From assembly GCA_019218315.1 (NCBI GenBank), contig JAHUUI010000001.1, forward strand, positions 293,722 to 357,721: a stretch of DNA of 64,000 nt, in the 5' to 3' direction. Shown one piece after another: positions 2,755-53,668 of the stretch. The position numbers and the translations under genes were made by a program. The notes under the pieces were generated by a model. It saw only the letters and a program-made list of their open reading frames with translations. It was not told where the DNA came from and did no database searches. The stretch comes from Cardiobacteriaceae bacterium TAE3-ERU3 (lineage in GTDB: Bacteria; Pseudomonadota; Gammaproteobacteria; Cardiobacteriales; Cardiobacteriaceae). Each line of letters opens with the position of its first letter. The first letter of the stretch is position 1.

Positions 2755-4522
2755 GTCCACCACCGCACAGGTGGCTTAGAAAATCATGCTCAATAACAAG
2801 ACAAGCACCCTGATGTCCACCACCGCACAGGTGGCTTAGAAAATCCAAACTCACCACACCACACTGATTGAGGTGTCCACCACCGCACAGGTGGCTTAGA
2901 AAAAAAGGTGCTTTAACTTGTTGTGCTGGGATTTGTCCACCACCGCACAGGTGGCTTAGAAATTGCACGGACGCTTACGACGGGCGGCAATGTGGTCCAC
3001 CACCGCACAGGTGGCTTAGAAAAATGCCGGATAAGGAATGCCTGACGGCATAACGTCCACCACCGCACAGGTGGCTTAGAAAGTATTACCACGGCGCAGA
3101 CAAGGCGCGCGTCAGTCCACCACCGCACAGGTGGCTTAGAAACCCAAGTTTTATCGGGTGCCCCAGCCGATGCAGTCCACCACCGCACAGGTGGCTTAGA
3201 AAGGAACCGGGAACGGCAGTTATCACTGTAATCAGTCCACCACCGCACAGGTGGCTTAGAAATCGGCCAATAGCTGTGCAGCCAGCTCTCTGACGTCCAC
3301 CACCGCACAGGTGGCTTAGAAACAAGGTTGCCGATCAAAATCACTTTGTTGATGGTCCACCACCGCACAGGTGGCTTAGAAAGCCGCGTTATTGTCGCCA
3401 ACACGCCCAAGCTAGTCCACCACCGCACAGGTGGCTTAGAAATTGAATGTAATCTGACCCCGCACCTTCTGGCAGTCCACCACCGCACAGGTGGCTTAGA
3501 AAACATTGGGGATAAGGAAGTTAAGTTCCAGCCTGTCCACCACCGCACAGGTGGCTTAGAAAATCAGCAGTATCTTATTTTGAACAACGTCGCGGTCCAC
3601 CACCGCACAGGTGGCTTAGAAAGGCATTTTCACAGGTCCAGACGAAAAATCGCTGTCCACCACCGCACAGGTGGCTTAGAAACAGAAAATACGCTACCGA
3701 CAATATCCGCGCCTGTCCACCACCGCACAGGTGGCTTAGAAATGCGTCACAGAGTGCGCGATTGTCGCAGTGCAGTCCACCACCGCACAGGTGGCTTAGA
3801 AACACAGAGAACAGTCACTAACGGCCGTATTGAAGTCCACCACCGCACAGGTGGCTTAGAAATTGGGAAACTGTCTTTAAGTTGGCCTTAGTTTGTTCAC
3901 CACCGCACAGGTGGCTTAGAAAATCTTAACGCCCGACTTTGTGCGCTTCAGATAGTTCACCACCGCACAGGTGGCTTAGAAAGCCAACATCGCTCTCTTT
4001 CTTAGGGGCTGTATGTTCACCACCGCACAGGTGGCTTAGAAAATTTGATCGCTCATTGATACCCAGCTGTTCCAGTTCACCACCGCACAGGTGGCTTAGA
4101 AAAGTCGTTCAACTGTTTTGCCAATTTCTAAAATGTTCACCACCGCACAGGTGGCTTAGAAAAGCACGCCTGACGGATGATTAAAGCTGCTATCGTTCAC
4201 CACCGCACAGGTGGCTTAGAAAACCACAGCATCGCGCAATAGCTCACGATAGACGTTCACCACCGCACAGGTGGCTTAGAAAATGAGATCAGGGCGGCCG
4301 GTGGCGAGGTTGAGGTTCACCACCGCACAGGTGGCTTAGAAAATCAGCTTGGCGCTGTTCGTAGCCGTCGCCAAGTTCACCACCGCACAGGTGGCTTAGA
4401 AACTGAGCGAGCGCATTTGGGAGACGACGCACAGGTTCACCACCGCACAGGTGGCTTAGAAAAAGGCGAAATACCGCCGCGTGCCAACCACTCCGTTCAC
4501 CACCGCACAGGTGGCCTAGACC
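2755..4522 (+). CRISPR. Type I-F CRISPR array 1, 30 repeats and 29 spacers
   Basis: Twenty-eight-base repeats recur every 60 bases with 32-base spacers. The repeat stem is CCACC, loop GCACA, GGTGG, followed by the 8-base handle CTTAGAAA. The first 19 repeats (starts 2755 to 3835) begin GTCCAC; the last 11 (3895 to 4495) begin GTTCAC. The final repeat at 4495 is degenerate (GTGGCCTAGACC at its end), marking the trailer, so the leader is on the csy4 side and transcription runs rightward. No two spacers in this array looked alike to me. Several long open frames across the array are artefacts of its 60-base (20-codon) period. Confidence 0.98.
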
Positions 4523-27130: not shown

Positions 27131-28839
27131 GTTCACCGCCGCACAGGCGGCTTAGAAACAAGCCACGCAAGCGTGGTGACGCATATCGTAGTTCACCGCC
27201 GCACAGGCGGCTTAGAAAAGAGGGTTTATCCGTGATTGTTAGTGCATTTGGTTCACCGCCGCACAGGCGGCTTAGAAAAGCTAATGGCCTGAAGGGTAAA
27301 GTTGAAGATAGTTCACCGCCGCACAGGCGGCTTAGAAAAAAAGTTTTGTTTCATAAATCACCTTTTTAGAGTTCACCGCCGCACAGGCGGCTTAGAAATG
27401 TTAGGCTCTGTGCGCTTTTCTGCTTCTCTCGTTCACCGCCGCACAGGCGGCTTAGAAAAGCCCAAGAGGTGGACGGCAAAGACTCACGAAGTTCACCGCC
27501 GCACAGGCGGCTTAGAAAATCACAAGCGGCCTAGAGGCGTTAATTGCTTCGTTCACCGCCGCACAGGCGGCTTAGAAAACATGCGCAAATGTGGCGGGTT
27601 CACCTGAATAGTTCACCGCCGCACAGGCGGCTTAGAAAGTAACCAGTGTTCGCCGCCGTAACGGGTCGTTGTTCACCGCCGCACAGGCGGCTTAGAAAGG
27701 ACGTGCGATGCCGGGCTGGCAATCAATTGTGTTCACCGCCGCACAGGCGGCTTAGAAAAGTCGAATAAACTTGATTGGAAGGCAAACCAGGTTCACCGCC
27801 GCACAGGCGGCTTAGAAATGTGAACCTCCATATCTGTTATACGCTTATCTGTTCACCGCCGCACAGGCGGCTTAGAAAAAGAAATTAACGTCAGACAAAC
27901 AGACCATATAGTTCACCGCCGCACAGGCGGCTTAGAAATCGGCAATGTGCGCCGCTTTCAGCGTCTTGCCGTTCACCGCCGCACAGGCGGCTTAGAAAGA
28001 AAAACAATCACCCGATGGATGAAAGTGGGAGTTCACCGCCGCACAGGCGGCTTAGAAAGATGGGGATTAGCAACAGTGGAATATAAAATTGTTCACCGCC
28101 GCACAGGCGGCTTAGAAAGCTGATTGCACGTAGTGAATATCGAACAGGTCGTTCACCGCCGCACAGGCGGCTTAGAAAATAATATTGCCCCGTCACTGCC
28201 GCACTGTTGGGTTCACCGCCGCACAGGCGGCTTAGAAAATTACAAGCGGCCTTGAGGCGTTAATTGCTTCGTTCACCGCCGCACAGGCGGCTTAGAAATG
28301 AACCCAAAGTTAAGCGTTATTTATCCGCTTCGTTCACCGCCGCACAGGCGGCTTAGAAATGTAGGCGCACCAAAGATGTTTATCGAATCTTGTTCACCGC
28401 CGCACAGGCGGCTTAGAAAGCGCGAAGTGCGCGACCAGAAGCGCAAAGACAGTTCACCGCCGCACAGGCGGCTTAGAAAAATGAGGGCGATATCGCCTGA
28501 TGAATTGCCCCGTTCACCGCCGCACAGGCGGCTTAGAAAAGCTTCAACAGCTGCGGCGGTTGTTTCGTTATGTTCACCGCCGCACAGGCGGCTTAGAAAA
28601 TCCCCAATGATTCCAGCGTTGAGATTATCGAGTTCACCGCCGCACAGGCGGCTTAGAAACCTTTTTTTAAAGTTAATAGGATAATAACCTAGTTCACCGC
28701 CGCACAGGCGGCTTAGAAACACGGAAGCTGATCACAAAATTGTGTGATGCGGTTCACCGCCGCACAGGTGGCTTAGAAATCCAGCGCTTGCTTTAATACT
28801 GGCGCAATCGGCTTCACCACCGCACAGGTGGCTTAGGAA
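27131..28839 (+). CRISPR. Type I-F CRISPR array 2, 29 repeats and 28 spacers
   Basis: Twenty-eight-base repeats recur every 60 bases with 32-base spacers; spacer 20 (28299-28331) is 33 bases. The stem is CCGCC, loop GCACA, GGCGG, then handle CTTAGAAA. The repeat at 28752 has GCC with GGT (G8, T18), and the last, degenerate one at 28812 has A8 and T18 like array 1. These changes mark the trailer end, so the leader is on the left. Spacer 7 (27519-27550) and spacer 19 (28239-28270) are identical at 30 of 32 positions. No cas genes lie beside the array; it must be served by the machinery at the left end of the window. Confidence 0.98.
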
Positions 28840-51532: not shown

Positions 51533-52612
51533 ATGACAGGATTCAAGGCTTTTCTGCACAAATACTTTATTGATGCCTTTACCGGCATGGCCTACGGCCT
51601 GTTCGTCACGCTAATTGCGGGGCTGATTATCGGGCAAATCGGGCGCTGGGCCGAGGTGGGGCTGCTGGTAGATGTCGGGCGAATTGCTGCCCTGCTGATG
51701 GGCGCAGGGATCGGCGCAGGCATTGCCTATTATTTGAAAGCACCGACGCTGGTCGTGCTCGGCTGCATCGTCGCCGGGATGATGGGCGCACACAGCGAGG
51801 CGCTGATGGCTGGCGAGTTCTTTAAGTCATTCCAAGATGGCAGCCGCAATATTTCCTATATTACGCCTTCGCCGGGTAACCCGATTGGCGCGTATCTCGC
51901 CAGCGTGTTTGCCTACCGCGTCGGCACTTGGCTCAGCGGCAAGACGAAGCTCGATATTCTGCTCGTGCCACTCGGTATTATAGTTACTACACTGCTGACT
52001 TGCTGGCTGGTCTGCCCGCCGTTCGTTGCGCTGGTGGCGGCGATCAGCCAAGGCGTTCATGCCGCGACTGAGTTGCAGCCATTTTTGATGGGGATCGTGA
52101 TTGCGGTGGTGATGGGCATTCTGCTCACGCTGCCGACCAGCAGCGCAGCAATTGCAATTGCCATCGGCCTGCACGGTATCGCCGGAGGCGCTGCGGTGGT
52201 CGGCTGCGCGGCGCAAATGATCGGCTTTGCTACCGCCAGCTTTAAGGAAAATGGCTGGGGCGGCTTTATCGCCCAAGGACTGGGCACGAGTATGCTGCAA
52301 ATTCCCAACGTGATGAAAAAGCCAATCGTGATGCTGCCCGCAATTGTCGCCAGCGCGATTACCGGGCCTATCGCCACTGTCATCTTTCAGCTGCAATGTA
52401 CGCCAAGCGGCGCAGGCATGGGCACGGCTGGATTCGTCGGGGTGTTTGGCGTGGTCGATGCGTCCGCTGGCGCGATGCCTGCTACTGCAATGTGGGCGGC
52501 AATCGTGCTTTTGATGTTCGTACTTCCAGCGGTAATTGCTGGCGCAGTCGCAATGTGGATGCGCCGTAAAGGCATCATTCGCCATGGTGATATGGCTTTG
52601 GCAAAACTGTAA
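51533..52612 (+). CDS. EIIC-like PTS transporter (PTS_EIIC_2 type)
   Basis: A 359-residue membrane protein with about ten helices. Landmarks are ITPSPGNPIGAYLAS near residue 117, LPTSSAAIAIAIGLHG near 202 and GAGMGTAGFVG near 300. It belongs to the stand-alone EIIC-like group (PF13303) without visible EIIA/EIIB neighbours; the substrate is unknown. GGAGG precedes the ATG at 51533, and 14 upstream codons are open but not supported. Its stop codon overlaps the first repeat of a CRISPR remnant by one base, and the next terminator lies beyond that remnant. Confidence 0.85.
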   Translation: MTGFKAFLHKYFIDAFTGMAYGLFVTLIAGLIIGQIGRWAEVGLLVDVGRIAALLMGAGIGAGIAYYLKAPTLVVLGCIVAGMMGAHSEALMAGEFFKSFQDGSRNISYITPSPGNPIGAYLASVFAYRVGTWLSGKTKLDILLVPLGIIVTTLLTCWLVCPPFVALVAAISQGVHAATELQPFLMGIVIAVVMGILLTLPTSSAAIAIAIGLHGIAGGAAVVGCAAQMIGFATASFKENGWGGFIAQGLGTSMLQIPNVMKKPIVMLPAIVASAITGPIATVIFQLQCTPSGAGMGTAGFVGVFGVVDASAGAMPATAMWAAIVLLMFVLPAVIAGAVAMWMRRKGIIRHGDMALAKL

Positions 52613-52760
52613 AACACCACCGTATAGGTGGCTTAGAAACGCGATCCCAATCGCCATCATTGTCAAAATAAGTTCACCGCCGCACAGGCGTGCTTAGAAA
52701 ATGTACACGAACCGCGCATGAAAAGCGCCGTTGTTCACCACCGCACAGGTGGCTTAGAAA
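52612..52760 (+). CRISPR. Orphan type I-F CRISPR remnant, three repeats and two spacers
   Basis: Repeat 1 (52612-52639) lacks the GTT start and has loop GTATA in an intact CCACC/GGTGG stem. Spacer 1 is 52640-52671 (32 bases). Repeat 2 (52672-52700) is 29 bases because of an extra T that bulges the base of its CCGCC/GGCGG stem. Spacer 2 is 52701-52732 (32 bases). Repeat 3 (52733-52760) is identical to the trailer-side repeats of array 1. There is no leader motif on either side. The array mixes both repeat types of the large arrays. Confidence 0.93.
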
Positions 52761-52761
52761 T

Positions 52762-52791
52762 AAAAAAACGGCGACGCTTTGTCGCCGTTTT
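52762..52791 (+). terminator. Terminator after the CRISPR remnant
   Basis: Stem CGGCGAC with GTCGCCG, loop GCTTT, followed by TTTT, and preceded by seven As so it can work both ways. It is the first terminator after the EIIC-like gene, so the remnant is likely to be part of that gene's mRNA. Confidence 0.8.
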
Positions 52792-52873
52792 CCCACTAGA
52801 TTCTTATATTCTGGCAAGTCATCACCGTATACCTAGTGCTACCGCAGCTCCTCAAGCGCATTAACCTAATAAC

Positions 52874-53668
52874 TTACGCGTTGCCCGCAAGCGCTGCGCG
52901 AAACAGATCGTTAAGCACGGCGATATCGCGCGGCTGGCGGACGCCTGCAAATGCACCAAAGCCTTCGCTTTCATGGCGCTCGATTTCCGTGCGGATAAAG
53001 CAATCAATAATATCGTTTTTGGCGATAAAGTCTTTTTCCTGACTGACGGCCTTTTGCGCAAGTAAAGCGTCTATTTCTCTACGCACTGCTTGGTCATCAA
53101 GCATGGTTAGCAAGGTGTGGAACTCTATCGGGGCTGGCTTTTGCTGCGCTTGTAGCCAGCGGATGGCAAGCAGCGGCCGCAAGACATAAAAATACTTTTT
53201 CAGCGGCACACTTTCTTCACGCAAATAACCACGATAGTTATTCTTTGCCATGTTCAAGTAGTGATACATGCCTTTTTCAAGGGCGTAAATCTCAGGCATC
53301 AGCGCAAGCATTTTTTGGCGAAAGTCGCCGCGCTCGATATAGGTGATTGGCGATTGCAGCCATTCGATCAATGCCGGATTGGATTTCCAGAACAGCTGCA
53401 AGGCTTTGCGGATGTCCCAGCCGTTGATATCTATTTCATCGACGATAGGGTATTCAATCACATCGCGGCGGTCTTCAAGGTCGACCGATAGATACCAATC
53501 GCGCGGGTGGATATAAATAAAGCGTACGTCGTAGTCGCTATTCGGCGAGGCAAAGCCCCATGCGCGGCTGCCGGATTCAATCGCCAGCAGGACGCGCACG
53601 TTGTGCTCAGCTTCTGCCGCGCTAATGCGCGACAGAATATCCGCCCGGACTTCGTGCTTAATTGCCAA
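52874..53668 (-). CDS. Nucleotidyltransferase-fold protein, YcgL type
   Basis: A 264-residue protein with the pol-beta-type nucleotidyltransferase signature GSRAWGF (about 33-39) and SDYDVRFIY (about 44-52), where the two Asp residues bind metal. The rest is helical. The family is common and without a settled role; some related fold members are toxins or antitoxins, but there is no partner gene here. The start is TTG at 53668, inside the end of the TRAP permease gene, so it is probably translated by coupling. Confidence 0.75.
   Translation of the reverse strand: MAIKHEVRADILSRISAAEAEHNVRVLLAIESGSRAWGFASPNSDYDVRFIYIHPRDWYLSVDLEDRRDVIEYPIVDEIDINGWDIRKALQLFWKSNPALIEWLQSPITYIERGDFRQKMLALMPEIYALEKGMYHYLNMAKNNYRGYLREESVPLKKYFYVLRPLLAIRWLQAQQKPAPIEFHTLLTMLDDQAVRREIDALLAQKAVSQEKDFIAKNDIIDCFIRTEIERHESEGFGAFAGVRQPRDIAVLNDLFRAALAGNA

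Follow-up and report, generated by a model that had tools for sequence, protein, structure and literature searches.

Three CRISPR repeats directly behind the stop codon of a transporter gene raise the question of whether they are the debris of an array or an element that acts on the messenger RNA that would carry them. In this study, we analysed a stretch of 64,000 nucleotides of Cardiobacteriaceae bacterium TAE3-ERU3 (the window, to which plain coordinates refer), and consider it likely that the repeats are what is left of a type I-F array cognate to the resident system: an orphan fragment that has no leader, is decaying and is passively co-transcribed with the transporter gene.

A short type I-F array behind a transporter gene

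Three type I-F CRISPR repeats (R1 to R3) and two spacers (S1 and S2) were identified at 52612-52760 on the + strand in the order repeat-spacer-repeat-spacer-repeat. A cmscan search of 401 bases against Rfam matched all three repeats to CRISPR-DR4 (R3 with E 6.6e-9, R2 with E 1.4e-6, R1 with E 3.4e-4), R2 and R3 also scored above the curated cut-off in a search of the whole window, and the repeats follow each other at 60 and 61 nt. Chance is excluded for repeats and spacing of this kind, and the two-spacer remnant that the original prediction had read from the letters is real. The features needed below are:

677-1747, + strand: csy3 (cas7f); TIGR02566, E 1.5e-125
1747-2397, + strand: csy4 (cas6f), endoribonuclease; TIGR02563, E 7e-38, and alignment to Csy4 in the PDB
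2755-4522, + strand: CRISPR array 1, 30 repeats and 29 spacers, with leader, following csy4
27131-28839, + strand: CRISPR array 2, 29 repeats and 28 spacers, with leader, no adjoining cas genes
51533-52612, + strand: transporter of the PTS_EIIC_2 family; Pfam PF13303, E 5.2e-86; stop codon TAA at 52610-52612
52612-52639, + strand: R1, degenerate, AAACACCACCGTATAGGTGGCTTAGAAA; CRISPR-DR4, 27.9 bits, E 3.4e-4, positions 4-28
52640-52671, + strand: S1, 32 nt, CGCGATCCCAATCGCCATCATTGTCAAAATAA
52672-52700, + strand: R2, array-2 type, 29 nt with an inserted T, GTTCACCGCCGCACAGGCGTGCTTAGAAA; CRISPR-DR4, 35.7 bits, 1 insertion
52701-52732, + strand: S2, 32 nt, ATGTACACGAACCGCGCATGAAAAGCGCCGTT
52733-52760, + strand: R3, canonical, GTTCACCACCGCACAGGTGGCTTAGAAA; CRISPR-DR4, 43.2 bits
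52765-52791, either strand: terminator-like hairpin, bidirectional; -17.0 kcal/mol, z -4.96 (fold of 52761-52800)
52874-53668, - strand: convergent gene of the RlaP family (RNA repair pathway nucleotidyltransferase family); Pfam PF10127, E 1.5e-86

The fragment has the make-up of a type I-F array, with 28-nt repeats (R2 with one extra base) that carry a 5-bp stem and the CTTAGAAA handle, unique 32-nt spacers at regular spacing, and cognate cas genes in the genome (cas1f, cas3f, csy1, csy3 and csy4). Both spacers are exactly 32 bases long, as had been stated, which is the length of 56 of the 57 spacers in arrays 1 and 2 (the remaining one has 33 nt), and they are unrelated to each other.

The three repeats are not alike. 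In the array listing R3 is identical to repeats 20-29 of array 1, R2 equals the array-2 repeat except for an extra T separating stem positions 19 and 20, at the base of the stem, and R1 departs from R3 by five substitutions, namely 5' AAA for GTT (52612-52614) and two C-to-T changes that turn the loop GCACA into GTATA, a loop also present in I-F repeats elsewhere in the order. The earlier description of intact R1 and R3 stems and an inserted T in R2 was correct, but left out the two loop changes of R1. Its placing of R1 on the last base of the stop codon holds only in the full 28-nt register, since the homology of R1 is recognisable only from 52615 on. R3 (ACC/GGT stem) followed by R2 (GCC/GGC stem) is an old-to-new order, as at the distal end of array 2, suggesting that the array was once growing; R1 is out of line with this order. 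R1 is matched in part by 12 bases at 52820-52831, but these lack the stem, are out of register and were taken as chance.

Leader and resident system

An operon cas1-cas3-csy1-csy2-csy3-csy4 lies on the same contig, just left of the window and in its start. Curated models recognised cas1f (4.6e-145), cas3f (E 0), csy1 (4.4e-99), csy3 (1.5e-125) and csy4 (7e-38); the model scan covered these five genes, and csy2 is a frame assigned from its position alone. Judged by these genes, the operon is apparently complete. Aligned with solved Csy4 chains, the resident Csy4 keeps the His, Ser and Tyr positions and the Arg-rich stretch, residues that presumably play their usual roles, and by this alignment the enzyme is intact.

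The leaders of arrays 1 and 2 align to each other with a local score of 43, compared with 17 for shuffled sequence (0 of 300). The 150 bases upstream of R1 score 14 against both leaders, no better than shuffles (14), so that the leader that an active, growing array carries at its first repeat is missing here, as had been claimed. In this one genome the leader may have been lost by deletion or through ectopic capture of the fragment. A genome-wide search with the repeat pattern at up to 3 mismatches recovered arrays 1 and 2, the remnant (through R1 and R3, R2 being hidden by its insertion), a solitary repeat at G000:C1:291942 and 2 chance-level matches, equal to the control count. The remnant is the sole stray array of the genome, the only other repeat outside arrays 1 and 2 being the CreR-like one described below.

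The large arrays hold two further observations. Array 1 (2755-4522) has GTTCACC in its distal repeats (20-30) and GTCCACC on the leader side (1-19), a switch that dates a repeat mutation copied by later acquisitions. In array 2, spacers 7 (27519-27550, ATCACAAGCGGCCTAGAGGCGTTAATTGCTTC) and 19 (28239-28270, ATTACAAGCGGCCTTGAGGCGTTAATTGCTTC) are near-identical with 2 differences, as would result from sampling one gene twice, in two variants of a phage.

Probable transcription with the transporter gene

The transporter frame is open from 51491, with a likely ATG at 51533 after GGAGG, and matches that of a sister species in the length of its C-terminus (GDMALAKL here, GDMALDGV in G001), thus the gene is intact. 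No promoter-like site was found on the + strand from 51480 to the repeats by a consensus scan, which is weak evidence, so the co-transcription proposed in the original prediction is still the simplest reading, and the remnant is probably transcribed with the transporter gene. Having no recognisable promoter of its own, it would most likely be transcribed only as the 3' UTR of the transporter mRNA.

The hairpin named as the only terminator past R3 is present, but it is weak on the transporter strand, with a U run of 4 on the + strand (UUUUCCC) against 7 for minus-strand transcripts, and a pattern scan called it a terminator on the minus strand only, facing the convergent RlaP gene. The hairpin can serve both directions. 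In two relatives (G002 and G008) the transporter stop codon is closely followed by a terminator hairpin whose stem reads ACGGCG, and since a similar hairpin follows R3, the remnant appears to lie between stop codon and terminator. A mobile-element setting was rejected for the immediate surroundings, where the neighbours that could be identified are creBC-like genes, RlaP and a TRAP permease.

Possible cutting by Csy4 and the search for spacer targets

R1 and R3 each form a stem of five pairs, with a fold of -8.6 kcal/mol (z -3.07 for R1), and both keep the Csy4 stem-loop and the 8-nt handle; the minimum-energy fold of R2 has 4 stem pairs only (z -0.57). Cas6f requires the C6-G20 pair at the stem base (PMC10651486), and with the inserted T of R2 beside this pair, separate S1 and S2 crRNAs are unlikely. 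Going by intact and bulged stems, Csy4, if it cuts here at all, probably does so at R1 and R3 and only poorly at R2. Cutting of this kind would mainly yield a single odd RNA, made of handle, S1, R2, S2 and stem, instead of two clean 60-nt crRNAs.

This bears on the possibility that the fragment is a small active orphan array, transcribed from the promoter of the transporter gene, in which S1 and/or S2 still provide immunity. The cuttable structure of R1 and R3, the standard 32-nt spacers and the resident Csy system would all suit such a role, but R2, which is needed to part the two guides, is the repeat with the damaged stem, and no target was found for either spacer. In their own genome S1 and S2 have no other full-length match at up to 3 mismatches, and a genome-wide PAM and seed search gave single-mismatch, chance-level matches only. 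The best E values against phages and plasmids (blastn) were near 1 or above, and a search of IMG/VR with every sixth base free returned nothing. With the PAM and first 20 bases as the query to IMG/VR, S2 had no target, and an S1 match of 21/32 was dismissed as chance because an ordinary-spacer control pattern gave 20-22/32. The complete arrays 1 and 2 (57 ordinary spacers) had no convincing protospacer in phages either, suggesting poor sampling of this host's phages, so that the missing targets of S1 and S2 say little.

The nearest studied parallel, CRISPR3 of Pectobacterium atrosepticum, is a third type I-F array with 3 spacers and slightly deviant repeats, which is processed without giving interference and, having a leader, takes up spacers at a low rate (PMC4117759). 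Like CRISPR3, the remnant is a third, very short I-F array with deviant repeats beside two large arrays and one cas operon; unlike it, the remnant has no leader and lies directly after a stop codon. The lack of interference by CRISPR3 despite processing further counts against an active array here, and we regard immunity through S1 or S2 as unlikely.

The same gene in relatives

Csy4 might alternatively cut R1 and R3 and cap the mRNA at the R1 stem, so that the stability of the transporter mRNA is set by Cas expression. R1 stands directly after the stop codon with its stem and handle intact, Csy4 is present, and Cas6f has been found to cut ectopic I-F repeats in Pectobacterium and to stay bound to them (PMC10651486). 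However, Rfam searches of the loci and reading by eye found no repeats behind the same transporter gene in any of four family relatives (G001, G002, G006 and G008), so that the conservation behind the gene that would mark a Csy4-processed 3' UTR element is missing, which argues against a settled function. The stem of R2 is broken, and every transcribed repeat would be cut, so that cutting by itself would be no sign of regulation. The link between transporter expression and Cas activity drawn in the original prediction is therefore not supported; trimming or control of the transporter mRNA by Csy4 is mechanically possible but a guess, and we give processing of this kind a low probability. Lower still we rate the stronger version, that a CRISPR fragment was captured as a natural 3' UTR element through which the amount of Cas6f sets the stability of the message by cutting and capping.

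With the transporter as query, genome contigs yielded distant homologues only (39-53% identity), none from close relatives. The sister species carries the transporter gene three times at exact 8,226-base steps (G001:C1:896754-914261; L011, L031), which may be a tandem amplification or else an artefact of assembly. In another family member (G007:C26), in which no csy1 was found, two solitary and slightly degenerate I-F repeats (L105:3786-3813 and L105:15638-15665) lie ~12 kb from each other, with sdhA-, hisB- and pheT-like chromosomal genes around them.

A CreR-like element in the cas3-csy1 gap

The solitary repeat belongs to an element at G000:C1:291939-292122 (L047:18218-18401) on the minus strand, 1.6-1.8 kb left of the window start, in the gap between cas3 and csy1 (G000:C1:291933-292174), just outside the window. 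It consists of psiR1 (CGTTTTCCAGATATATCTGGCTTAGAAA), a 20-nt guide (ATACTGCCACTAGGTAGATT) and psiR2 (GTTCGCCGCCGCACAGGCGGCTTTTTAA), and the guide matches CC-ATACTACTTCTAGGTAGATT in the same gap at 17/20 positions, or 15/17 with every sixth base free, compared with at most 11 for shuffled guides in 1000 trials. This target lies 2 bases from a TTGACA-N17-TAGACT promoter pointing at csy1, abutting its -35 element. An element laid out in the same way, with another guide and another target, was found in a member of another family of the order (G013, L106:8383-8531), where guide and target match at 14/17, a value reached by 2 of 1000 shuffles. No such element was seen in any of the nine other csy1 loci of the order by a regular-expression scan, which would miss strongly diverged ones. 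In this genome the space between promoter and csy1 accommodates no toxin frame. CreR has been described for type I and V-A systems (PMC12737573), and Acinetobacter I-F has CreTA at this place (PMC10097628); the element looks like a CreR placed where Acinetobacter has CreTA, and probably serves autorepression of cas. It is better evidence of regulation than the transporter remnant.

That a spacer of the remnant guides the Csy complex by a partial match to a chromosomal promoter, so that the promoter is repressed, as CreA and CreR guides do, is very improbable: the genome does hold one CreR-like element, and of R1 and R3 the first is the more degenerate, like psiR1 relative to psiR2 in CreTA (PMC9458426), but across 104 kb the best partial PAM-flanked matches (13/17 for S1 and 12/17 for S2) are inside the range of the 57 ordinary spacers (11-14), with the CreR-like guide at 15/17 in the same comparison, and full-length or PAM and seed matches beyond chance are absent from the genome. 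Like the mini-arrays of Acinetobacter I-F CreTA (PMC10097628), the remnant has ectopic I-F repeats, the first more degenerate, with cognate Cas present; unlike them, it has full 32-nt instead of shortened 20-nt guides, no partially matching target near a promoter, and no adjoining toxin or cas promoter. The action of the spacers in trans that had been suggested thus finds no support in the genome, phages, plasmids or viral contigs.

Discussion

A decaying orphan fragment fits these results best. It would have lodged between the transporter stop codon and the bidirectional terminator and, without a leader, would gain no new spacers from one; it would be leftover memory, with no further function indicated. 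The broken stem of R2 argues for decay. Two points count against mere decay, neither strongly. First, the fragment has an exact position, with an intact stop codon on one side and a terminator on the other. Second, the five R1 substitutions spare both the stem and the handle, which hints at selection for a cuttable hairpin; chance would give this with a probability of 0.0026 for independent changes, and of 0.12 for a 5' AAA that arose in a single junction event.

The fragment resembles orphan or isolated arrays generally in its few degenerate repeats, the missing leader and a distance of ~50 kb from csy4, and differs from them in its presumed 3' UTR position and the intact cognate Csy4 in the same cell. 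It shares with RNA anti-CRISPRs (Racr), which are single repeats on phages and plasmids (PMC10651486), ectopic and presumably transcribed I-F repeats that Cas6f could bind, but its three repeats stand with spacers among chromosomal genes.

Should the locus be no more than a remnant, it documents, on a small scale, the decay of a CRISPR array and the landing of repeats in a 3' UTR. If it were true that Csy4 shapes the transporter mRNA, this would be natural control of a housekeeping message in cis by a CRISPR ribonuclease, a use that to our knowledge has so far been mainly that of engineers. The CreR-like element between cas3 and csy1 offers a directly testable case of I-F cas autoregulation.
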